This document shows, piece after piece, positions 5,444 through 63,794 of a stretch of DNA of 64,000 nucleotides (position 1 is the first letter of the stretch; the number at the start of each line of letters is the position of its first letter). The notes under the pieces were generated by a model, which was given only the letters and a program-made list of their open reading frames with translations, was not told the DNA's origin and searched no databases. Made by a program: the position numbers and the translations under genes. Source of the DNA: Plazaster borealis (lineage: Eukaryota; Echinodermata; Asteroidea; Forcipulatida; Labidiasteridae); assembly GCA_021014325.1 (NCBI GenBank), contig CM037473.1, forward strand, positions 24,728,822-24,792,821, written 5' to 3'.

Positions 5444-5796
5444 ATAATAATAATAATAATAGTTAGTTTTTATATAGCGCTTTTCATGCCCGAAGGGCGT
5501 CCCAAAGCGCTTCACATTATTACCCCTGGTCACTGGGCCTTAAATCATTCCTTAAACCATCTCAGCTCCCTGGGGAGTATACAGCCTGTGCAACATTAAT
5601 GCGCTACTCGGCTAAATCAATCACAAGAACCATCTCTGCCCTCACAGGTACCCATTTACCCCTGGGTGGAGAGAAGCTTATGGTTAAGTGTCTGCTCAAG
5701 GACGCAAGTGTCACGACCGGGATTCGAACCCACACTCTGCTGATCAAACACCAGAGCTTGAATCCGGCGCTCTTAACCGCTCGGCCACGACACCCC
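5444..5796 (-). repeat. Full-length SINE, tRNA-Leu(CAA)-like head
   Basis: On the - strand it starts GGTGTCGTGGCCGAGCGG. An anticodon-arm segment GATTCAAGCTCTGG resembles tRNA-Leu(CAA), and the B box is GGGTTCGAATCCC. The body includes GAGGGCAGAGATGGTTCTTG and CAGGGAGCTGAGATGGTTTA. The tail module is AAAGCGCTATATAAAAA followed by (ATT)n. This is the best-preserved copy in the window. Confidence 0.85.
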
Positions 5797-15989: not shown

Positions 15990-17560
15990 TACCAGACCCC
16001 TTTAATAAAAAAAGTACAATATCTTTAAAAAACATCTTAAACCTAGTAAAACCTTCGATGAAAAAGTACCATACGTACCTTTAAAAACAATTTAAATCTA
16101 GTCAAACCTTCAATAAATAAAATACCATACCTTTAAAAACATTTTAAACCTAGTCAAACTTACAATAAAGTACCATATCTTTAAAACATTTTAAACTGAG
16201 TGAAACCTTCAATGAAAAGTAGCATATGTATACCTTTAAAAACATTTTGAACCTAGTCAAACCTTAAATAAAAAAGTACCATACCTTTAAAACATTTTGA
16301 ACCTAGTCAAACCTTAAATAAAAAAGTACCATACCTTTAAAAACATTTTTAACCTGGTCAAATCCTCAATACAAAAAAGTAACACACCTTTAAAGACATT
16401 TTAAACCTAGTCAAACCTTAAATAAAAAGTACCATACCTTTAAAACATTTTAAACCTAGTGAAACCTTCAATGAAAAGTAGCATATATACCTTTAAAAAC
16501 ATTTTGAACCTAGTCAAACCTTAAATAAAAAAAGTACCATACCTTTAAAACATTTTAAACCTAGTCAAACCTTAAATAAAAAAGTAACACACCTTTAAAA
16601 CATTTTAAACCCAGTGAAACCTTCAATGAAAAGTAGCATATGTACCTTTAAAAACATTTTGAACCTAATCAAACCGTCATTAAAAAAGTACCATACCTTT
16701 AATAAAACATTTTAAACCTAGCGAAACCTTCAATGAAAAGTAGCATACGTACCTTTAAAGACATTTTGAACCTAGTCAAACCGTCATTAAAAAAGTACCA
16801 TACCTTTAAAAACGTTTTAAACCTAGTCAAACCTTCAATAAATGAAATACCATACCTTTAAAAACATTTAAAACCTAGTCAAACTTACAATAAAAAAGTA
16901 CCATATCTTTAAAACATTTTAAACCTAGTGAAACCTGCAATGAAAAGTACCATACGTACGTACCTTTAAAAACATTTTGAACCTTGTCAAACCTTCATCA
17001 AAAAAGTACCATACCTTTGAAAACATTTTAAACCTAGTAAAACTTATAATAAAAAAGTACCATATCTTTAAAACATTTTAAACCTAGTGAAACCTGCAAT
17101 GAAAAGTACCATACGTACGTACCTTTAAAAACATTTTAAACCTAGTCAAACTTATAATGAAAAAAGTACCATACCTTTAACAACATTTTAAACCTGGTCC
17201 CATTCAGTAAACAAGAAATGTTATGATACACAGTGTACACGATGATCTTCTCATTATGTTTTTCAGAAAAGTAAAAAAACAAACTTTATTCTCACAGAAA
17301 AAAAAAATCTCCCCGTTTTAACCATTTGAAAATACCGTAACCCCTTTAATGAAGAAGTACCATTTAAAGGCATTTTAAACTTAGGCAAACCTTCAATGAA
17401 GTAAATACCTAACTTCAAATTTTTTTAAAAACCTAGTCAAACCTTGAAGAAAAAAACCCCTAAGTTTAAATACATTTTAAACCTAGTGAAACCTTCAATA
17501 AAAAAATATCACATCTTTAAAAACATTTTAAACCTAGTCAAACCTTAAAAAAACCCAACC
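15990..17560 (+). repeat. AT-rich minisatellite, ~46-50 bp unit
   Basis: About 30 imperfect units contain AAAGTACCATACCTTTAAAA, ACATTTTAAACCTAGT and CAAACCTTCAAT. Units vary by small indels and grow more diverged toward both ends. It abuts the GC-rich minisatellite that follows. Confidence 0.9.
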
Positions 17561-17564
17561 CAGG

Positions 17565-18840
17565 TCCAGTCCTCCTCTACTTTGCCTGGCCATACCTATT
17601 CTATCCAGCAACCTCCCATCCCCTGGCCCGAGTCCTCTACCCAGTTTAATCATCATGCCCATGTCCAGCCAGCCAAGCCAGCCCACAGCCAACCCAGCCC
17701 CAACCAACCAACCCTCAGCCAAACCAGCCCACAGCCAACCAACCCTCGGCCATCCCAGCCCACAGCCAGCCAACCCTCAGCCAAACAACCCTTAGCCAAC
17801 CCAGCCAGCCATCCCACAGCTAACCAATTAACCCTTGGCCATCCCAGCCCCCAGCCAGCCAACCTTCAGCCAAGTCAGCCCACAGCCAACCAACCCTCAA
17901 CCAAACCAGCCCACAGCCAACCAACCGTCGGCAATCCCAGCCCCCAACCAACCAACCCTAGGCCAAGCCAGCCCACAGCCAACCAACCCTCCGCCAAGCC
18001 AGCCCACAGCCAACCAACCCTCAGCCATCCTAGCCCACAGCCAACCAACCCTTAGCCAACCCAGCCAGCCACCCCACAGCCAACCAACCCTTGGCCATCC
18101 CAGCCCCCAGCCAGCCAACCCTCAGCCAAGTCAGCCCACAGCCAACCAACCCTCAATCAAACCAGCCCACAGCCAACCAACCCTCAGCCATCCCAGCCCC
18201 CAACCAACCCTTAATCAAACCAGCCCACAGCCAGCCAACCCTCAGCCACCCCAGCCCACAGCCAACCAACCCTCAGCCAACCCAGCCAGCCATCCCCACA
18301 GCCAACCAACCATTAGCCATCCCATCCCCCAGCCAGCCAGCCAACCCTGATCCAAGTCAGTCTACAGCCAACCAACCCTCATTCGAGCCAGCCCACAGCC
18401 AAACAACCCTCAGCCATCCCAGCCCACAGCCAACCAACCCTCAGCCATCCCAGCCCACAGCCAACCAACCCTCAGCCAACCAACACTCAGTCAACCAACA
18501 CTCAGCCCTCCCAGCCCACAGCCAAGCCAACCCTCAGCCATCCCAGCCCACAGCCAACCAACCCTCAGCCACCCACCCCACAGCCATTCCAACCCCCAGC
18601 CAGCTAACCCTCAGCCAAGTCAGCCCACAGCCAACCAACCCTCAGCCAAGCCAGCCCACAGCCAACAAACACTCCGCCATCCCAGCCCCCAGCCAGCCAA
18701 CCCAACCCAGCCCTCAGCCAGCCCTCTCCATCCAGCCAGACCCTCACCCTCAGCCAGCCTTCAGACTCCCAAGAGCCCCTCAGCCCTCAGAATTTTATCT
18801 CCCTCAAGCCCAGCCATCAGCCTTCCAAGGCCCTTGGTCA
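17565..18840 (+). repeat. GC-rich 31 bp minisatellite
   Basis: About 40 units of 31 bp contain CCCACAGCCAACCAACCCTC and AGCCA-type segments. The unit lacks stop codons in all three + frames and in some - frames. Because 31 is not a multiple of three, the frames cycle through a 31-residue Pro/Gln/Ser pattern (such as SPQPTNPQPSQPTANQPS). The open frames here are products of composition, not evidence for a gene. Confidence 0.85.
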
Positions 18841-18956
18841 ACCCTCAGATCGGCCAAAAATCCAAGGCTCGAGCCAGGGAAAACTTTTGGTGAAAATTTG
18901 TCAAAGTCAGGCCATTCTAATATTCATCAGGTCAAAAATCGTATGAATTTCATGAA

Positions 18957-19030
18957 AGCTCAGTAGCAGAGCGGTAAGAGATAGAGGCTACAGAGCTAAA
19001 GGTACCAGGTTCAAGCCCTACCCATTTTTA
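18957..19030 (+). repeat. tRNA-like sequence
   Basis: It reads AAAGCTCAGTAGCAGAGCGG (A-box region) and later CAGGTTCAAGCCCTACC (B box). Spacing is tRNA-like, but the acceptor and anticodon stems are poor. SINE head or tRNA pseudogene. Confidence 0.4.
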
Positions 19031-19069
19031 CAAGAATTTAAAAAAAATCTTCTTTTACTGGTAAAAAAG

Positions 19070-19158
19070 GGGCCCCATCAGGATTTGAACCCCCGAGCTC
19101 ACAGCCCCAGAATTCTGGAAGCTGTGAGCTAGCCCGCTGGGCCACATGGCCGCTTGAA
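19070..19158 (-). repeat. tRNA-like sequence with long variable-type arm
   Basis: On - it reads GGCCATGTGGCCCAGCGGG, then GCTCACAG paired with CTGTGAGC, then GGGGGTTCAAATCCTGATGG. A box and B box are clear. The internal 8 bp stem is longer than a normal anticodon arm, so it is tRNA-derived, not functional tRNA. Confidence 0.4.
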
Positions 19159-19589
19159 AAAAATTGCTCGGAACTTATATTTAAACCTTAGTATGGGTGG
19201 GTCAAAAAAAATAATAAAAATAATGAGATGCACCCTTTGACATTTGACCTCGGTTCAAAGCAGGACAAAATAAAAAGACAAAATTGCTTCAAATTGGTTT
19301 ACAAAAACTCTTTATTTTTACATAGGAAAACAGGCATTGGTAAGTACAAAATATAAGTGTGTACACGGCGAGTCACATTTCAAATGTGGTTTTAATTACC
19401 CTGTAATTAAGTTACTTGTAGAGTAAACGCAATTTGGAAAATTCCATTGAAGGTAAATTTACCACTCATATAACAAATAAGCAAAAGTTTACCTTTTGTT
19501 TTATACACAAAAGTACTCCATAATTTTACCTCTTGTATATCCAGGTCAATCAAATCACGGTTCAAATTTCTTTTTCAGTAATCGTTGCT

Positions 19590-26047: not shown

Positions 26048-28800
26048 AGGGGAGAGGTTACCAGCACTTCACCCTCAGCCAGTATTCTCAGTATACGGCT
26101 GTGAAATTGAACCAATAAACTTGAGTTTTAAGATCCAATGAAAACATGACCAGAAGTTCTATTTGAACATTTGAGGGGAGAGGTTACCAGCACTTCACCC
26201 TCAGCCAGTATTCTCAGTATACGGCTATGAAATTTAAACCAATAAGCTTAAGTTTTAAGATCCACTGAAAACATGACCAGAACTTCCAATTGAACATTAA
26301 AATTGAGGAGAGAGGTTACCAGCACTTCACCCTCAGCCAGTATTCTCAGTATATGGCTATGAAATTTAAACCAACTTAAGTTTGAAGATCCACTGAAAAC
26401 ATGACCAGAACTTCTAATTGAACATTTGAAGGGAGAGGTTACCAGCACTTCACCCTCAGCCAGTATTCTCAGTATACGGCTAAATAAAATTAAATTGAAA
26501 CATCTTGTTGATAGACGACATTGATATTGTATTTCCTTCTTCCGTGCTGAATTTTTAATATTTTTAACACCTTATGAACGGGTAGAGGTTCCTACATGTA
26601 GAATATTCCTCTCAGCCAGAATAGTTGACTTTTGCATGTACCATTGAAGATAGTTGGCTCATTTTAAGTAGCAAGCATAATTTCCGCGCAACGCAGTGCA
26701 AAAAGTTTTTCTTCCCTATGATGAAGTAGATCACTTAAAAACAATTGAATATCATTGAACGGAGAAATTTCCAGCACATTGTCTTCAACGAGAATTTTCA
26801 ACAGCCTGGTTTGTGTTTGACTCAACAATCGAGAAGTTCCATAGACTCATATTTTCCAAATCTATACTTCAGTACGGTATGTTGATGAGTAGTGTCAATC
26901 CTCAAGTTGTAGTCACAAGCTATCTTACTCCAGGTTCACAGTTTACAATGTGGTAATTCATGTTTACTTTTATGTCCCAATATGCTGCCTTTGTACGCAG
27001 CAACATTACCAATGCCCATTTGAAAGTTCTCCATAGAAACAAAGGTGGTGTGTAGGTCCACTTGCAACATCATTGCATAATTGAAGAAGTAATTGCCCAT
27101 GCATGTGGTTTTGGTGTGCACAGCAACCCAGTTCATATAAATGTTTAACTTCATTTTGGTTTATGAATTACTCAATTATACCCATGGTAGCCGAGCTTGG
27201 GTACTTTTTCCAAAGTTTCACCATTGTTCTAGTTTATAGTTTTAACATCTGGTGGCATTGTACAACAGAGAATGGTTATCTCAAAAAATGTTGGAGTTTT
27301 TTTATAAAATTGGTGGCAGGCAAATTGTTCCATGATGAAAAAGTCCTACAGATGTAGTTGAAAATAAAATCTGGCAGAAATAAAATACTGAGAATTTACA
27401 GATTTCAGATTGTGACCGGTAACTTCTACGACTCTCGAACATGAGTTGCCATGCTTAACTACATCATGACTTATTGTTCAGGAACATCCGAGGTGTGTAA
27501 TGTAAGTATAAGTCTGGCAATTTGAAAGATGGATCACTTCATGTGGGTACGTGGCTTGTCCTTCAATATACATTTAGGGGGTGTTTAACACAAAGATGAA
27601 ACAGTTGAAATAATGGCAGGCTAGATGGAGCAGCAAACCAGAGACAGGTACAACTAGTTTTACTCCGGGATCCTCAACATGGTAGAAGATCAAGAGGGCA
27701 TCATGCAGCATTGTTTGTGTACAGCCTGGAGCGCGACTCTGGCATTAACCGCAGTGACCTACCAGCAATCATGGAACGAGGAGACCAGTGGGGACCGTTG
27801 TCAGCAATGTCCAAATTCGCTCAATTTAATAATGATGAGTTTTCTAGACTTAATGTAGTTTACAATCCTGATAAGATGATTAAAATGAACTGCTGCCATC
27901 ATCTGAAGTAATGTGCCTCGAGTTGAAATCACTGATGATGCTAGAATTACAGAATTGGCCTTTATCATTTGGAAAACATTGACAAATGCCATAAGCAAGT
28001 GTGTATACAAGCTCTCTGAGTGGGGGGTTTCCAGGCAAATCACAATATCAAAATGATGTAGCATCTAGATGTGACAACCATCACCTGATCATTCATTTTG
28101 TGCGTCTAAACCATATCCTTCATACATGTAGGCTCAACAATAAGAGCCTGATGATCTACAGACTTGTCACAATTAATTCTGTAAACAGGTTTTTGGTCCT
28201 TTTATCACACGTTAAAACTTTTTACAAAAGCCCTAAGGTACATTTAATATGGTCATGTTAACGGTTTAACAAAATAATCTCAGTAAAATGCGACTAGGGG
28301 AGAGGTTACCAGCACATCACCCTCAGCCAAGATCCTCAGCATCTGGCTAATGCAGAAAGTGAAAAACGAGGGGGGGGGGAAATATTCACTCTTACTTTTC
28401 AGCTTGTTTCAAGGGGAGAAGTTCTCTCTTTTTCTTTGCACATATTTCACACTGATAATTCTTTACAAATATTTGATACTTGATGAATAAAAAATAAAAC
28501 AAGTGTGCAACATTGTTACCGAATTTAAGGGGAGAGGTTACCAGCACATCACCCACAAGCCAGGATCCTCAGCATCTGGCTATAAATTTCAAAACTCGAT
28601 CTGAATTTCCAAATTTATTTCTAAAGCGTAGTAGAGCAAGAGTTCAATCTTTTCACATTTATTTCTACAACAATGATTCATAAAACATCCATTTATAGCT
28701 TGAACAATCGTTATCGATGGATGATTTCACTGACAAAAGCAAAGCGGCTCCAAAGTCGACATTTAACAGGGGAGACGTTACCAGCACGTCATCCTTTCAT
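26048..28800 (-). repeat. Dispersed array of ~52 bp blocks (mini-exon-like or hairpin-like)
   Basis: Blocks lie at 26048-26100, 26174-26226, 26307-26358, 26430-26481, 28297-28348 and 28529-28581. Diverged members are at 26578-26630, 26759-26812 and 28769-28800. The + strand reads AGAGGTTACCAGCAC then CCCTCAGCC and ends GGCT. On the - strand the six clear blocks have AG at the 5' end after a pyrimidine-rich tract and CTG|GTAACC at the 3' end, bounding 37-38 nt. The - frame gives LRILAEGDVLVTSP-like peptide. The 26759 block keeps it as LLKILVEDNVLEISP despite heavy nucleotide change. The + strand can fold a hairpin AGCC-GTAT/ATAC-GGCT. Outside the blocks, the 28 kb copies share no flanks with the 26 kb copies. 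Function unknown. Confidence 0.5.
27613..27911 (+). CDS. Uncharacterised open frame, possible transposon relic
   Basis: A frame of about 99 codons follows TGA near 27610 and ends TAA at 27909-27911. It includes RQVQLVLLRDPQHGRR, GHHAALFVYSLERDSGINR and DQWGPLSAMSKFAQFNND. It is more GC-rich than its surroundings at 27640-27810, and a second + frame is also open there. No domain was recognised. It could be a transposon fragment or an exon. Confidence 0.25.
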
Positions 28801-28809
28801 GTTGATGTA

Positions 28810-29340
28810 CTGGATGTTACTACATCTTAACATAACAATGATGTTCTGAAGCCAATAAGTAGATAAAGTTGCACAACTTCATTTGGTAACCCTTTGAATT
28901 TGGAGGTTGAATTAGTTACTTGAAAATCACATCACTGATCATAACTCCACTATGTAGCCTTACCGACATCTCTAAACGTTTGTATCACAATGTTTCAATA
29001 CATACAATAATTCTTAGTTTTAACTTCACAGTCAAATCATGGGCATAAATAATTATACCATAATAACTGTTTGTACCGGAAATTCTGTGTACCCCCTTTG
29101 TGAAGGAAGATAAATCCTTCAAAATACACGTTTTTCACAATGTGCCCAAGTGATGTAAAAAGATTAATACAAATTGCACACTTTGTATCAGACACAAAAC
29201 TGCGGTTTGTCAAAAAAATTGAGGAAAGTGCAAGGTGTAGCAAGACTTTGAACTGTGATTTTCAAGTATCATTTGCACATCTGAGAAATCTACAACGGAG
29301 AAACCAGGTGATCAGCTGAAAAGTTGCATGCCTGTTGTAT
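28810..29340. other. Gene-free stretch
   Basis: AT-rich and unstructured. The 29037 open frame on - has no support. Confidence 0.3.
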
Positions 29341-29345
29341 GCAGA

Positions 29346-29812
29346 AATTAAAAGCGATTGGGAATCACTGTTCCTCAGCATAACAGTTCTTTACTTGAGG
29401 TTCTTGTTTCATCTTCTCTTGAGATGCTTCTGTTGGGAAGGCTTTTAAATTCTGTTCTGTGTTCTCAGTCTTAAGTTCTTCACTGCTTCACTGTATACAG
29501 AAATTGAAAGCGATTGGGGATCACTGTTCCTCAGCATAACAGTTCTTTACTTGAGGTTCTTGTTTCATCTTCTCTTGAGATGCTTCTGTTGGGAAGGCTT
29601 TTTAATTCTGTTTTGTGTTCTCAGTCTTAAGTTCTTCACTGCTTCACTGTATACAGAAATTGAAAGCGATTGGGGATCACTGTTCCTCAGCATAACAGTT
29701 CTTTACTTGAGGTTCTTGTTTCATCTTCTCTTGAGATGCTTCTGTTGGGAAGGTTCTTTAATTCTGTTCTGTGTTCTCAGTCTTAAGTTCTTCACTGCTT
29801 CACTCATTCAAG
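29346..29812 (-). repeat. Three-unit 156 bp tandem repeat
   Basis: Three copies with an exact 156 bp period each carry CTCAGCATAACAGTTCTTTA and GAGATGCTTCTGTTGGGAAG (+). On the - strand the unit nearest 29346 is open as a Glu/Lys-rich peptide (EELKTENTEQ, MKQEPQVKNCYAEEQ). The other two have an in-frame TAA. A pyrimidine-rich tract ending in TATACAG recurs before two of the units. It may be duplicated exons that decayed, or a simple tandem repeat. Confidence 0.7.
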
Positions 29813-31935: not shown

Positions 31936-34900
31936 CTAAAAGAAAAAGAAAAAGAAAAGTAAAAATATTGTTGTAGTTTATTACAATTTTCTCAATTATG
32001 TGCACACAATAAGCATGTACATGTAGAATGCATCTTTACATTACCAGGTTTATCCACAAGTTACTATACACAAAACTAAAACCTGGTTTAAAACATGTAT
32101 AAGCAGAATGAAGATTTGCATAAAATTTAAATAATACAAGGTGAATTTTAGGAATCGAGAACAATTTGGGCCCTAATTAAAAAGAATTCCGAGGACCATA
32201 AAAACTTTGACAAGTAAATCTTTCTGTCTGTAATAATTTCTTAGATGGTCAAATACATTGAAAAAAGATGCAATGTCTAACCTACAATGACAGCAACTGC
32301 ATGTGGGAAAACTGAAAGAGTTGAAGTTGAAAGTACAGTAGAGGGCTACTTCACAAACTGATCAAATCACTACACAGTCCACGGTAGTCTATACACAGGA
32401 AATGATCGAGAACTGGGTTTTAATATAAAACTTAGGGAGGTAAGGCATGTCGCGGCCAAGCGGTTAAGAGCACCAGACTCAAGCTTTGGTGTTTCTGATC
32501 AGCAGAGTGTGGGTTCGAGTCCCAGTCATGACACTTGTGTCCTTGAGCAAGGCACTTTATCATAATTGCTTCTCTCCACCCAGGAGTTCGTCCAAATGGG
32601 TACCAGCGAAAGCTGGGGAGTAACCTGCGATGGACTGGCATCCTGTCCAGGCGGAATAGAAATATTCTCAGTCGTTTAAGGCACTGAACACAATTGGAAA
32701 TTGTCAAAGACCAGTGTTCTCACTTGGTGTATCCCAACATATGCATAAAATAACTAGCCTGTGAAAATTTGGGCTCAATTGGTCATCGAAGTTGCAAGAA
32801 AATGATGAAAGAAAAAACACCCTTGTTGTACAAATTTGTGTGCTTTCAGATTAGGAATAAAAACTTCTTGCAAGAAGTTTTTATGCTAATATTTGTTTTG
32901 AGTCATTACCAAACGTGTACGGTACCTTTAATGCCAAGGAAACCAGGTATAAACACCGACCTGATGAGCCATATTGGCTCGGGACAGACTTTACTTAGGG
33001 AGGTAAGTAAGACAACTCATTTCCTTTCAATAAATAAACCCAGTTAACTCCTCTGTGATGCAATCCAGAACATAAATCATGTACAAATGGATGTAAATGC
33101 ACAAACCTGTACATACCTTCATCAAGTAGAAAGCAGGAACACTATAAGTAGTTCACGTCAAGGAAAGCCTTTTGGTAAAAACTTGAAAGTAGAGATTATG
33201 TTGCCATCTGAAGAGCACTGATCCTGTCGGGCGTCTTCAATTGCAGGAGTTCTTTTCTACGTCAGAATACTGTAAATAATATCTGCAAGTAGTCCAAAAC
33301 GTGCACTTCTCTGTTCGCTAGAAAGAACAATATGAGAGGGACTCTGTCAAGGTGATCAAAGGAACGAAATGATGCTGTTGAAGAAGCCCAAAGATTAACA
33401 TTTTGTTGCCTAAACGTTGGTGACTCAAAACCCTGCTTTTGACCAAGTTTCTCTGTCAGATGTTATGTAAAATGGCAAGTTGAGGTTTTGGAATTGAGCC
33501 AAGGTGTCCACCTCCCTTTCATTTACCTTATTCGAGCACGCCCACTGACAAGAGATAATTGTGAATCCAGTAATTGCAGGTACTACAAACATTTACAATA
33601 ATTCATTACAAACAGCATTACCAAAGTGAACTCATGTGAACTCAATTTTTCCACAAATTAAGTATTTGGTCCAAACATCCATTTCCATCCACTTGGAAAG
33701 AAGCTTTTCCTGTAACAATGAAAGTGGGTGGAAATGGATGTTCGGACCAAATCCTCAGTTTTATGGAAAAATTGAGTTCACATGAGTTCACTTTGGTAGT
33801 ATTTGCTGTTTACCAAAAACATTTTTTATTGTAAAATCAGTTTCATCTACCTAGTGTATCCTTATGCATGAAACCATGGAGGAGGGTTACAAATGATGGT
33901 ATGCTTAGGATTTTCTGTGTCACCCTCCATTATAAAGCGCATAGAGACTTCTCTGTGAATGTGATATGCGCTATCACGCATGATATTTGATGGAAAAAAG
34001 TAAGAAAATTTTATTGAGTACAAGCCCTGACCTACGTGTACAAATGGTACAGGCTCTAATAGACTTTTCAGGCTATTTAATCACAACTTTCCTGATTTTT
34101 CCCAAGGGCTAACAAATCAGAAATCAGACTAAAGTATGAAGAATATCATGCCTGGCTTTACAAGAATGGTTCATTATTATTTTAATATTTATAAATCATC
34201 TGGATGTTTTGTTTTGTTGTTGTATTTTTTGTTTTGTTTAAGTCAGATTATTTGTTTGTGCACCTACATGTACCTGTTTCCTCTTGTAGAAAGAATTCGT
34301 CTTGGATGCCATCATCAATAGTGTTGAAAGTGTTGTGGAGTAGTCGCCCAGCTCTCTCAGCCCCCAACATAGGTGGGTGGAATATTCTCTGAAGTCTGTC
34401 TGTAAACATGGTGTCTGACTGAGAAACATTGCAAACGTAAGTTAATTGTACTAGAATGTTTCTGAATGCAGTCTCGCTGTAGTGTAATTCAGATAAGGTG
34501 TTAATTTTAGGTAAAATATTCAACCTTTCATAACTAAATTATTACCAATGCTTTAAAAATAATCAATTATGTTTTTGTTATGCCACATTAATTGATGAAC
34601 TATTAACCTATGACAGCACTGAAAAAAAAAGTAAATTAATTAATGAGTGAATCATTGAATGAACAAATATGTGGTAAAATAAGCTTTGTGAATTCAATCT
34701 GTAAATTTAGAGTTATTCGCTTTCACAAATTGCAATCATGTGGATAGTTTACTTTAACTAGACAGAAAAAGTCCTCCACCTGCCAACATTTTTTATATAA
34801 ATATAAATGACATTTTTAAAGGCTTTTAAACCTTCTCAAGTAAAAACAATTGCTGTTCTAATCTTGAAAGGAATTATTCAAGATGCTTAATAAATAATTA

Positions 34901-36316: not shown

Positions 36317-39262
36317 CCTTGAACATACCTTGAAGCGCCACATCTCCATCTTCACTGATGAGAGTGTAGCAGGGTTAGGGGGCTTTGTAGCCCATTATAA
36401 ACCCATGTGTGACAGTTCGGTTTTGAAGCTTAGGAGTGTTGGGGCAGAGACCGCACTTTGTGGTAGCTGGTTCCATGGGTTTACCACTCTCTGGCTACAG
36501 AAATTTTTCCGGATGTCTTGGTTGGGTTTTGATTTGGCGAGCTTACAAGTGTGACCTCTGGTTCCCTGATACTCTGCTTTTTTAAACATTGTGTTTGGGT
36601 TGATCTTATCCATTTGTGTCATGATGCGGTATGTTTCTATGAGATCTCTCCCTCTTCCTTCTGTCTTTGAGTGTTGTGAGGTTTCGCTGGGTCAGTCTGG
36701 TCTGGTATGGTTGGTCCTTTAGACATGGTATGAGTTTGGTGGCACGGGCTTGTACCTTTTTGAGAATTTTCTTGTCTTTGGTTAGATGGGGGCTCCAGAC
36801 CTGCATACAGTAATCTAGGTGTGGACTAACAAGCGACTTGTATAATTGGAGGATGATGCTTCTGCTGCGAAAAACAAAATTTCTCTTGATCATCCCCAGG
36901 GCTCTGTTTGCTTTCTTTGCTGCAGCTGCACATTGAGTTGAAACTTTTAGAGATTTGTGTATCCAAACCCAGATATCTTTTTCTTCAGAGGTTTCCTTCA
37001 GTTCAGTTCCCTCCCCCATGTTGAAGATATGATTTTGGTTGTGAAACCCAAAATGCATAATTGCACATTTTTCAACATTGAATTGCATTTGCCACTTCTC
37101 TGCCCATGATTGGAGCTGGTTGATGGCGCTTTGCATGGTGTCAACTTCATGTTGAGTTTGCACCGTATGACAACATTTGTTGTCGTCTGCAAATTTACTG
37201 ACTCTTGAGCTTTTGCTGATCCCTTCTTCTGAGTCATTCATGTAAATTAGGAAACATAGGGGTCCTAAGACAGAGCCTTGTACTACCGAGCTTGTGACTT
37301 CCTTCCATCCTGATTCTGTTCCCTGGGTTAATACTTTTTGCTTCCTGTCTGCTAACCATTCCAGTCGATGCCGTGGGTCTGATTTTTGCTGCTAGTCGCC
37401 AGTGTGGAACCTTATCAAAGGCTTTAGCTAGGTCCAGGTACACAACATCAACAGGAGTCCCGTCATCAACAAGCTTGGTAAGGAATTCAAGGTGTTCCAG
37501 TAAATTTGCAGTGTATGATTTTCCTTTTCTAAAACCATGCTGGGTATCGCCTATCAGGTTGTGCTTATTAAGGTGGTCTGTATTAACTTGGTCTCCAGTA
37601 ATACTCTCTGAGACTTTCCCTATGATGTTAAACTTATCGGCCTGTAATTCCCTGGCTGTGGTCTTGAGCCCTTTTTGAAGATAGGTATAATATGTGCAGT
37701 TCGCCAGTCTTCTGGTATATTATTTTCGGCTATTGACTGCTTAAATAATGAAGTGAGTGGCGCACATAACTCGTTGGAAAGCTCTTTCAGTATGCTGGGT
37801 GGGATACCATCTGGAACTGATGCTTTCTATGGGTCAAGTTTGTCTTGTTTACTCTCAACATTTTCTTGGGTAATCACTATGTCTTGTAGTTTGTTGTCAG
37901 CTGGTCCTTTGAACATTTCTTTTGGCATCGTCATACCCGGTACTTCCTCTGTAAATACTGATGCAAAAAAATTGTTGAGGGTGTCAGCGGTCTTGTTGCC
38001 TGGTGAGATTAATTCACCTGATTTTGTCTTCAGCGGTTCTACTCGAGTCCTTGACCCTCTGCTTTGACCGTACATACGGGTAAAAGCTCTTTAGGTCTTC
38101 TTTGACGTTTTTAGCGAGTTTCTTTTCGAAGTCTTGTTTGGCTATTCTTCTTTCTCTTTTTGCTTCACTATTACATTCGTCATAGTGTTATTTGGTCTTG
38201 TTTGATTTCCTCTCTTGGTATTTCCTCCATGCTCTCTTCTTATACCTTACAGCTTTAAGTGCCCTTTTTAAAGAGCCAGATTGCTTTCTTTTTTCTCTGC
38301 TGCTCGACAGGTACATGTAGTTTGATCATATCTTGTAGTGTAGCTTTAGTCTTTATATCCCATGCCTGTTCTGTTGAGCAGTTTTGGAGTCTTACCTCCC
38401 AATTTATCTCATTCAGTTCCGTTCTTATTTTGTTATAGTTGGCTTTTTTGAAGTCAGGTTTTAGTGTTGCTGTGTCTGAGTCAATATGGAAGTTCTTTGT
38501 CCATTTCAACATACAGTGGTCACTGGTTGCAAGGTGTGCCTGTACTTCCACTTCGTCGACCATTTCTGGGGTTGATGTTATCTCTAGGTCCAGCTGTGAC
38601 TCCTTGTCGGCTGGGTTACATGTTGTGTCCATAAATTGTCTTGGATGACATATAGAAATGCTTCTGATTTACTTGATTCCGCTTGTATGGTCTCCCATTT
38701 CACATCTCTATAATTGAAATTTCCCATTGTTATGATATCTTTGCGTTCGTCGTTTAGGTTTACGGAGTAAATTATTGAGCTTATCATTCATTTCGGTAGT
38801 GCTACTAGGGCTACGCTATACAATCCCGAGTAATATGTCTAGTTCAGTGCCTGGACTTGTGCTCTAGCTTTTCTGTCTAGTCTTGTAAGTTGGTAGCCGG
38901 GGACCTGCATCTCCGCATCACAGATGTCACTGTTTAGCCAGGTTTCAACAATTTTGATTATGTCTGGTTTTTCATTGTAAATATAGGCTTGTAGATCATC
39001 TCTCTTATTGATTAGACTTCGTGCATTTGCAAAGGTACACGTTAAGAATTTCCTTACACTTGTAGATCCATTCGATTTCTTTGATCCATTACTTTTTCAC
39101 CAGTTCCTCTTATTGACTAGTCCTAAACTAGCGTCAATACTGGCGGGGGTCTACTTTCCACTCCAGTTTCTTGACAAGTGGTTTTCATCATGCTTTTCTG
39201 TGCCTGTGTGCACCTTCGCAGGGGTGACTTTTCCCCTGTGCTTCTGTGTCCAAGGCTAGAGT
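36317..39262 (-). mobile_element. CR1/L2-like LINE, endonuclease and reverse transcriptase, decayed
   Basis: Read 5' to 3' on -: endonuclease motifs NARSLINKRDDLQAYIYN and IVETWLNSDICDAE (about 39030-38900), GNFNYRDVKWE (38.7 kb) and LATSDHCMLKW (38.5 kb). Reverse transcriptase follows with VYLDLAKAFDKVPHW-like sequence (37.4 kb) and the catalytic FADDNK (about 37.19 kb), then KSLVSPHLDYCMQVWSPHL and QARATKLI in the thumb. Frameshifts break it into several frames. The 3' end carries a short tandem of AAGGTATGTTC, the kind of microsatellite tail used by CR1/L2 elements. It is inserted in a DIRS element. Confidence 0.8.
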
Positions 39263-61700: not shown

Positions 61701-63252
61701 TTGGTTTCTTTTTTAAATTCAACATCTTTGTCTCAATAGATTGATATTCAAATGTTGAGTTTGAGTCTCACAAATATCTTTCAATCCTGCCGAGTATCAC
61801 CAATAAAACAGAAGAGATAAATCTTCTCTTAGTGTTTGTTCAAATAAAACAGTTTAGATGATAAAACTGTGTTCTCATTTTGATTCTAGTCTCTTCTCAT
61901 TTTGATTCTGGTCTTGTAATTAAAATCCCGGTCCAGTAAAGATTCTGAGCTACAAGTCCTGTGGTCTTGTGGAGTTTTCCCCCAAATTTGAGCCCTGCAT
62001 TCGGGTCCCTCTACATACCCTGCCAAGTACAACAGAATGCAACACAGTTGAAATGAGAACCATGCCAAATGCAACAAAATGCAACAAAATGCAACAAGGG
62101 ATTTTGTTGCATTGTGCAGGCAGTAGGCAAGTGTAGTGGTGACTTGGCTAATATGTGGGACCATAAACTCTGCCAAATGCAACAAAATGCAATACCAATA
62201 TGAAGTCACTTGACTGCTAAATGCAACAAATTCAGTCAAAGAATGACATTTGAGTTGACTGGCAAATGCAACAGATAACAGATTACAACAACTATTACCA
62301 TTTGGTGCATATTGTTGCATTTAGCATGGTTAGGGTTAATGGGCCAGCCAAAGTTTTCCACATTTGCAAGGTTGCACAGCGAGTACAACTTTTCAAGAAA
62401 ACCTGTACAGTGTAGATGAACAATATGTTGGTGCCTCTCTTTATAAACGGTAGGCCTATCCAGGCCCGATGCTTCACAGAGGCAACAGGTGCAATTGCCT
62501 CTGGTCATTGCCTTGGAGCCCCATGAAATGTTCCAGTACAAATTTACATTTCCCTCATTACAACATGTAGGTGCCCTTTACTCCTAGAGCTATGAGGTTC
62601 GTTCTGCTATCGTCTCCATTACCCTCATAGAGTGACATGTACAAAATCATATTCAAAACTTTTTGCCCTTCACGTTTACATGCATACAATTCTTTTTTTT
62701 AAACAGATCTTGCCAAAATTGGGCTCTAAGTGTTCTTTGTACTCTCATTGAGCGTTGCGTGGGTCCTTATTTATTTTCATTCAAACGAACCACAAAGTTC
62801 AAGTTCTTTATGTTTTTACTTTTTTACAGGTGCAGTTTGTAAAGAAGGCTGGCACATGTACCAGCTGACTTACGCTTGTTTCAAAAGTTTTGAATCAGTC
62901 TTTGTACAGCAGAGTGCGTTAGACTTCTGCACTACGGCAGAAAGCCAACTGGCTACCGTCTCGGAGCCCGAGCTGGACTACCTCGCTGCATTGTCCTGGG
63001 TGGGTCAGGAGTCGTCTCAGACATGGTGGATGGGTTATGAGATGCGTCAGGTCGGGGAAAACACCACGGAGTGGCAGTTGGTGGACCTGTCTGATGAGGG
63101 TGGTGACGTGGGTTGGATCGGCCTGAAACCGCCGACTGCCGAAACAGACGAGATAAAACTGTGTGTTGTACTAGCCCTTGAAGCAGACAATAAAAAGTCA
63201 GCTTGGCATTTACAGCCATGCACAGATAAGTCAACTTTCTTGTGCAAACAAG
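58675..63252 (+). CDS. Secreted C-type lectin domain protein, first three exons
   Basis: Joined exons 58675-58720, 61433-61528 and 62830-63252; all introns are phase 1 and the gene continues beyond 64000. Exons 1-2 make a signal peptide (MDSLVHRFLVCFILQ then VVLLLRINAVPG) and a short Asn/His linker. Exon 3 is a C-type lectin domain: CKEGWHMYQLTYACFKSF, the Cys of DFCTTAESQLATVSEPELDYL-type helix 2 region, WWMGYE, and the closing LCVVLALE, WHLQPC and FLCKQ. No EPN/QPD or WND calcium-ligand motif is visible, so calcium-dependent sugar binding is doubtful. Phase 1-1 exons are typical of shuffled extracellular modules, so more domains may follow. Many such proteins serve in invertebrate immunity or adhesion; the role here is not known. 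Confidence 0.8.
59008..59130 (+). repeat. SINE head, 5' half of a split copy
   Basis: AAGCTGTTAAGAAGAGCACC then the B box GGGTTCGAGACCC ends at AGTCTTGAC. The rest of the SINE resumes at 59631. Confidence 0.65.
59131..59630. mobile_element. 500 bp insertion splitting a SINE
   Basis: AGTCTTGAC (59122-59130) is repeated at 59631-59639, a 9 bp (or 8 bp) target duplication. The insert begins TAGAGAGC and ends CCAGCT(A). An 8 bp duplication and TAG..CTA tips suggest a hAT-like non-autonomous element. It is much more GC-rich than its surroundings (GCGCTCGCGGGGCGGTGTGG). Confidence 0.5.
59631..59880 (+). repeat. SINE tail, 3' half of the split copy
   Basis: CTCAAGCAAGACACTTTTAA, CGGATGGGACGTAAAGCTG, CACGTAAAAGACCC and TTTGAAGGCTGCACTC match the tail of the 55716 copy. 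Confidence 0.7.
60017..60748. repeat. Large inverted repeat, ~340 bp arms
   Basis: Arms about 60017-60355 and 60406-60748 are near-perfect reverse complements separated by about 50 bp. The tips are TACTTCTAGAAACTATAAGG and its complement. Close to the centre are GCGCAAAAATTAAGACTGCG-type sequences and GGTGTGCGC repeats. Small differences (a TAT/CAT change, one indel in the A/T run) suggest it is fairly young. Lies in lectin intron 1. No long open frame. Confidence 0.85.
60837..61152. mobile_element. TIR element with inverted GTTGAGGCA modules
   Basis: The ~55 bp inverted termini contain GGTCGTAC, GCGCCCCAGAT, CGGTCGTATTTTCCCCGAGG and GATCTTC. The interior has at least six copies, in both orientations, of GGTTGAGGCAGGACACCCGT, joined by short spacers. 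About 316 bp. Confidence 0.75.
61433..61528 (+). CDS. Lectin gene exon 2
   Basis: The acceptor cctgtttgtatttttacag and donor CAA|GTAAGT are strong. Two bases, 31 codons (VLLLRINAVPGRSNNSTH to WDVPHS) and one base. A likely signal cleavage lies near NAVPG; NNST is a possible N-glycosylation site. Confidence 0.75.
61610..61997. mobile_element. TIR element, CAGGGCTYRAATTT termini
   Basis: Begins CAGGGCTTGAATTTTACACT and ends CAAATTTGAGCCCTG. The interior repeats CCAGTAAA and GGTGGTCTTG/GTGGTCTTG words. Termini of this kind are typical of hAT non-autonomous elements. No clear target duplication. Confidence 0.55.
62035..62330. repeat. Cluster of AAATGCAACA words
   Basis: At least ten copies of AAATGCAACA or its complement TGTTGCATTT occur in 300 bp, some in tandem (AAAATGCAACAAAATGCAAC). 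Degenerate tandem/inverted repeat in lectin intron 2. Confidence 0.6.
62331..62829. other. Lectin intron 2, nothing recognised
   Basis: Ordinary AT-rich sequence ending in the acceptor tatgtttttacttttttacag. Confidence 0.35.
62830..63252 (+). CDS. Lectin gene exon 3 (C-type lectin domain)
   Basis: The acceptor tatgtttttacttttttacag and donor CAAG|GTAGGT are consensus. 423 nt: two bases, 140 codons and one base, so phase 1-1. It is more GC-rich than its flanks. Contains the full domain from CKEGWHMY to FLCKQ. Confidence 0.88.
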
Positions 63253-63794
63253 GTAGGTTGACCATTGAACAACATTGTCCGCATATTTTCCCACATTTTA
63301 GTGGAATAAGGATTTTGTTTGTATCCACTGAGGGAAATAATTTTAAAATGTAAAGCCGAAGTACTTAAAATGCATTGATTTATGTGTGCGTGCGGATTGT
63401 TAAACTTTGCAAAGTGAAACAATATTGCTGTTAATTGTTCTGTTTGTTTGTAGTAACCTTTATCGTTAACTGTTTTCAAAACTGCTTACTTTGAGGTAAT
63501 TTTCACAAGTCAGTTTATGAAAGTAGCAAGTCTAATAGCCTTTCTTTCTCTTTAACCTTCTAATTGTCTGACCATTCTATATTTATCCACATGGTTTTGA
63601 CTCAAACATGTACATGGTGTAACTATGCAAAATGCCATCCTGCAAAATGATTGAATGTGGTGAATGGAAATAACATACACATCATTCTGTGCACAGGTTT
63701 TCCACCATACTATACAACCCATGCAGTTTAATGGTTTTGTCTAGTTGGTCAACTCACCTTGCTACGTCTTTCTGCAAACTTGTAACTTGTTACC
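63253..63794. other. Lectin intron 3, nothing recognised
   Basis: AT-rich; no exon found before the window end. Confidence 0.35.

Follow-up and report, generated by a model that had tools for sequence, protein, structure and literature searches.

What are the short blocks that recur within 2.8 kb of this stretch of the Plazaster borealis genome? The first-pass annotation of the window (the whole 64,000-nucleotide stretch analysed, C19:24,728,822-24,792,821) counted nine related blocks and held two readings of them side by side: tandem mini-exons or duplicated exons on the minus strand, or a repeated RNA hairpin on the plus strand. We compared the blocks with one another and searched for relatives across the genome (560.6 Mb, 717 contigs).

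The window blocks and their genome-wide family

Between 26,048 and 28,795 on the plus strand, the window contains six full block copies of 54 nt and one core-only copy, all in direct orientation. Sequence comparison placed A-type blocks, made of a 28-nt core and a second hairpin, at 26048–26101, 26174–26227, 26306–26359 and 26429–26482. B-type blocks lie at 28296–28349 and, carrying a 1-nt insertion, at 28528–28582; the copy at 28768–28795 has the core without the second hairpin. Scoring with the A and B block sequences as references gave 93–106 for the six full copies and 44 for the partial copy. The best-scoring place outside this region scored 34, and a possible decayed block at 26758–26811 (plus strand, 61% identity), which had been described as a diverged copy at 26759, scored 32 (at 26761) and is therefore indistinguishable from noise. 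Of the nine claimed, the six full blocks and the partial one were thus recovered, two had no support from block scoring, and no additional block inside the region stood out among the 19 best-scoring places listed. Other details of the first-pass annotation proved correct: the groups at 26 kb and 28 kb have the block in common and unrelated flanks, the 1-nt insertion is present in the 28528 block, and block alignment contains the two compensatory pairs that separate the A form from the B form. A dispersed repeat that is found on many chromosomes lies in the same region, separate from the blocks (window 27626–27838), and a 156-bp tandem repeat follows at 29336–29804, with three copies at 97% that are open in one plus-strand frame.

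A genome search with a 20-mer core, allowing up to 2 mismatches, yielded 512 matches versus 12 for the reversed-pattern control, an abundance far above chance. The 100 places listed were all perfect and all on C18 or C19 (up to C19:17.89 Mb); because the listing runs in contig-number order, we infer that C1–C17 are without a perfect 20-mer core of the array type. A stricter form of the core gave 40 matches, 40 of 40 on C18 and C19, and none in the control. Copies within one array share a strand, and their spacing is array-specific, mostly 110–200 bp. The element measures ~52–54 nt and its 28-nt core reads AGGGGAGAGGTTACCAGCAC-N-TCACCCT. In the C19 arrays that were read, the core is joined to a 24-nt second hairpin to give a 52-nt element, and in C18 arrays mostly only the 28-nt core is common, with unrelated flanks and a second hairpin that is mostly missing. 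The blocks of the window are one array of this genome-wide 52-nt element family, and the family occurs in two settings: in arrays downstream of a tRNA-like segment, and in LINE 3′ UTRs on the opposite strand.

No Rfam family matched the 64-kb window at the gathering score, permissive Rfam searches of the tRNA-like segment and of one array returned matches only far below that score, and the viral contigs searched contained no match to the element. The literature searched on the core letters, starfish repeats, noncoding RNA and LINE 3′ stem-loops yielded no description of it. Passages of a paper on a sea-star sex region (PMC11757944) and of one on echinoderm chromatin (PMC13317027) offered no link to the element.

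The element in LINE 3′ UTRs

Cores with a variable middle of 3–6 nt gave 121 matches compared with 1 in the control. The 100 listed were found on 18 of the contigs C1–C19, with some in C19 arrays and most of the rest single; 33 belong to an array at C12:5426196-5440134, which has a LINE-type core with a mostly TTG middle. Twenty dispersed loci were fetched, and several of these align with each other beyond the block. In a motif scan of 25 loci on the minus strand, the end motif of a reverse transcriptase (RT) frame (up to 4 substitutions, no control run) preceded the block in 12 and a LINE tail motif followed it in 6. By eye, the LINE context was clearest at L057, L075, L083 and L091, and no long RT frame was found in the DNA beside the dispersed loci L094 and L095. 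Across seven chosen loci, two of which (L086 and L093) had neither RT end nor tail in the motif scan, the block is 84% identical, compared with 65% and 58% for its 80-nt sides and 61% for shuffled sequence.

An intact 1,012-aa frame with RVT_1 and Exo_endo_phos domains lies in a related LINE copy at C9:10,294,825-10,297,863, and a protein search with this frame found 623 homologues, 120 of which were listed. Eleven LINE copies, mostly with long open frames, were chosen by us from 150 matches listed. All four fetched copies of one L2-like family carry the block in the 3′ UTR on the opposite strand, where it begins 64–65 nt past the stop codon of the ORF; the start of a tail hairpin lies 127–128 nt beyond the block, and TTATT repeats come 48 nt further. 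We take these block-bearing LINEs to be L2-like from their features and from general knowledge of the class, not from a tree. None of the seven fetched copies of other L2-like families (two of them from one family) has the block within ~500 nt, and the tail is present in six of the seven. Judged by remnants, the block also occurs in the 3′ UTR of several further LINE families. The middle of most array cores departs from that of LINE cores by 1–2 nt, so these array cores are not perfect antisense partners of the LINE cores.

Two further observations concern LINEs. At the loci L098–L102, L105 and L106, other L2-like families are represented by copies whose open frames span 355–1,133 aa, and the window itself includes non-LTR retrotransposon remains with RVT_1 at 36395–37719 on the minus strand, some 7.5 kb away from the array.

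Arrays downstream of a tRNA-like segment

Alignments and a 27-mer search delineated a conserved tRNA-like segment of ~400 bp upstream of the window array, at 18850–19290 on the plus strand. Neither this segment nor the link to LINEs had been noticed in the first-pass annotation, and both are additions of the present analysis. The segment carries motifs on both strands that we take to resemble A and B boxes, with a T run after each; ARAGORN called no tRNA in it. Forty of 117 candidate places were scored, with 87–100% identity (34 on C19, 5 on C18 and 1 on C10), and a 27-mer from the segment was found at 77 places (37 on C19 and 26 on C18) and at none in the control. The C12 array has no tRNA-like segment among these 27-mer places.

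Every one of the 25 tabulated array clusters on C18 and C19 has the segment on its 5′ side in the same orientation, at a distance of 1.3–12.8 kb (median, 5.7 kb), and random placement gave a maximum of 4 in 2,000 trials. The 25 clusters were drawn from listed places, with seven lone matches of the variable-middle core search on C18 and C19 set aside as dispersed copies; three further clusters (C19 23.42, 25.93 and 26.62 Mb), compared by eye, have the 27-mer segment too. The converse fails. Where the perfect-core listing is complete, and counting perfect-core arrays only, 16 of 47 segments have a listed array (5 of 26 on C18 and 11 of 21 on C19 below 17.89 Mb), so most segments are without one.

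Piecewise alignment of the 24.93-Mb and 17.89-Mb units extends beyond 18 kb with 70–96% identity, which marks them as large segmental duplicates. In this alignment the 100-bp bins of the segment reach 96–98%, and one other stretch, a tRNA-like repeat, reaches 96%. All units are paralogues, so the orientation common to them may go back to a single event that they inherited. Two minisatellites identified with TRF precede the segment in the window: a 51-bp AT-rich one at 15999–17553, found by blastn to L045 also upstream of the 17.89-Mb array, and a 31-bp CAGCCAACC-type one at 17670–18703, found by blastn to L043 and L049 upstream of other arrays.

Two further ideas about the units were considered and rejected. 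Among the matches listed, a comparison of uninterrupted ORFs between units recovered the collinear 24.93/17.89-Mb pair, the segment, the minisatellites, dispersed repeats and the arrays, and not a protein-coding unit; one C18 core is followed by a 48-codon ORF that only close paralogues have in common. A Pol III terminator after each block was also discarded: T runs follow many copies of the 8.96-Mb array, not the window copies.

Other tRNA-like sequences were also seen. Minus-strand tRNA-like repeats extending from L043 9280–9901 into L050, with matches in L051, L049 and L052, lie about 3–5 kb beyond the arrays in three units; the Asn anticodon assigned to these L043-type repeats comes from our own reading, not from a tRNA search. 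ARAGORN reported tRNA-Leu-like copies at window positions 5708–5793 (minus) and 32444–32534 (plus), possibly dispersed tRNA-derived repeats. Towards the far end of the window, a C-type lectin domain exon lies at 62730–63353 (plus strand; Pfam Lectin_C, 7.7e-8).

Constraint on the core and the possible role of the element

The 28-nt core is strongly constrained. Paralogous C18 copies (28 copies, 33 pairs, one copy with a 1-nt core deletion lying outside the count) showed 0 differences in 924 core positions versus 238 in 4,324 flank positions. For the C19 A-type copies (105 pairs), the counts were 15 of 2,940 in the core, 124 of 2,624 in the second hairpin and 2,550 of 12,000 in the flanks, a difference rate of 0.5% in the core versus 21% in the flanks. 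The compared pairs are not independent, and the search through the core pattern, which tolerated up to 4 mismatches, tends to pick copies with intact cores; the contrast between core and flanks greatly exceeds what we would expect these pair and search biases to produce. Such constraint suggests a putative bound partner.

For the pairing, 121 distinct copies were aligned, and 93 ungapped ones (57 distinct over 54 nt) were kept for their likeness in core, loop and arms. Pairing in these 93 copies amounts to 92.6% for one stem and 94.3% for the other, although selection for block likeness favours paired stems. By our count over all 121 rows, one of which is a false match, double changes restore the pairing of stem 1 in 8 and at least one position of that stem is unpaired in 36. 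At pair 4 of stem 1, G-C is replaced by A-T in two arrays (8.96 Mb and 24.31 Mb) and by T-A in the first of these, and at pair 1 three arrays have A-T in place of G-C. We counted the two compensatory pairs that separate A from B, together with linked sites, as a single event. Most covariation is this single A/B split, beyond which Fisher tests gave two pairs at p = 0.035 and 0.031, uncorrected. Folding z-scores of the block forms ranged from −3.3 to +0.8, the B form and two of the three LINE forms folding no better than shuffles; two hairpins are predicted for the L096 LINE form. Two hairpins in the block are plausible. The repeated hairpin proposed earlier is partly supported by its well-paired stems and the few restored pairs, and weakened by the broken ones and by the strongest constraint, which falls on the core sequence and not on pairing. 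Its assignment to the plus strand gains nothing from wobble pairs: with G-U pairs (21) and A-C mismatches (19) equally frequent in the ungapped block-like copies, no RNA strand is favoured.

We tentatively favour, as a possibility a little short of even, an account in which a hairpin element of the LINE-3′UTR type has been reused as arrays of putative binding sites in some of the loci headed by the tRNA-like segment. The element would be a recognition module, its stems presenting the core loop to a putative protein or small RNA; it probably originated in LINE 3′ UTRs, and its use in arrays would have come later. If transcription of these loci leads away from the tRNA-like segment, the array RNA would be antisense to the LINE element and could, speculatively, act on LINEs or compete with them.

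The strongest competitor, somewhat unlikely in our judgement, places recognition in the DNA: the core would be a long site for a DNA-binding protein of the zinc-finger type, the segment a promoter or boundary, and the LINEs carriers of a copy of the site. Both the constraint test and the per-position counts, in which sequence and not pairing is most constrained, agree with such a site, as do wobble pairs without strand preference, but the spacer length inside the core varies among subfamilies, and a linear site has no need of the few double changes that restore the stem. Less probable again is a functionless origin, in which satellite arrays arose from LINE 3′UTR fragments in a segmentally duplicated locus and were kept alike by unequal exchange. 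This would suit the array-specific periods, the two units that are large segmental duplicates and the many segments without a listed array; yet exchange would homogenise the spacers too, against the 0.5% and 21% found for core and flanks, and C18 copies with unrelated flanks keep an identical core. We also consider it improbable that the family of tRNA-like-headed loci, concentrated on two chromosomes, would transcribe arrays antisense to the conserved 3′ UTR hairpin of L2-like LINEs and control those LINEs by way of an element that they are not free to alter. The mini-exons, mutually exclusive or duplicated, are very improbable: the blocks have an AG before them and CTG|GTAACC inside them and the A and B consensus sequences read LRILAEGEVLVTSP in the minus frame, but in the ungapped block-like copies distinct substitutions fall evenly on the three codon positions of that frame (25/23/27) and synonymous changes number 21 versus 23.5 expected, indels of 1–2 nt shift the frame in a number of copies, the most constrained stretch crosses the supposed donor uninterrupted, the 8.96-Mb array has no pyrimidine tract before the AG (by eye), and in LINEs the block sits past the stop codon.

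The favoured account, a LINE-type element reused in arrays, can be set beside known systems. In stringent-type LINEs the recognition stem-loop sits at the 3′ tail beside terminal short repeats, a position that the block does not occupy. The reverse transcriptase of these LINEs (zebrafish LINEs and UnaL2) is reported to recognise a 3′UTR stem-loop (PMC4176376, PMC5135761), which, like the block, is a structured element in a LINE 3′ UTR. The block differs from that stem-loop in three ways: about 127 nt lie between its end and a separate tail hairpin downstream, other L2-like families have a tail and no block, and arrays of the block exist outside LINEs. Xist is a long noncoding RNA whose A-repeat consists of a short hairpin unit in tandem with AT-rich spacers. 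A short hairpin unit repeated with AT-rich spacers is common to both, whereas here there are many paralogous loci, known from DNA alone, and the constraint is mostly on the core sequence. Clusters that produce piRNAs hold arrays antisense to mobile elements, and natural RNA sponges hold repeated target sites with a variable middle. The present arrays have these features in common with them, but the middle of the core is mostly different between arrays and LINEs, and one conserved element is present where piRNA clusters have a mixture of mobile elements. In SINE families, a conserved central domain of ~50 bp is common to elements that otherwise do not align, a feature found here too, but the carriers in this genome are LINE 3′ UTRs and arrays, and no SINE body was seen.

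The analysis joins a short element under strong constraint, a family of loci with a conserved tRNA-like segment, and the 3′ UTRs of LINEs with intact frames in a single system that lends itself to testing. Should the element prove to be a protein-binding site common to them, a 28-nt bait could fish out the protein. If the arrays act on LINEs, they would represent an unusual check, in an animal genome, on a constrained site of a mobile element.
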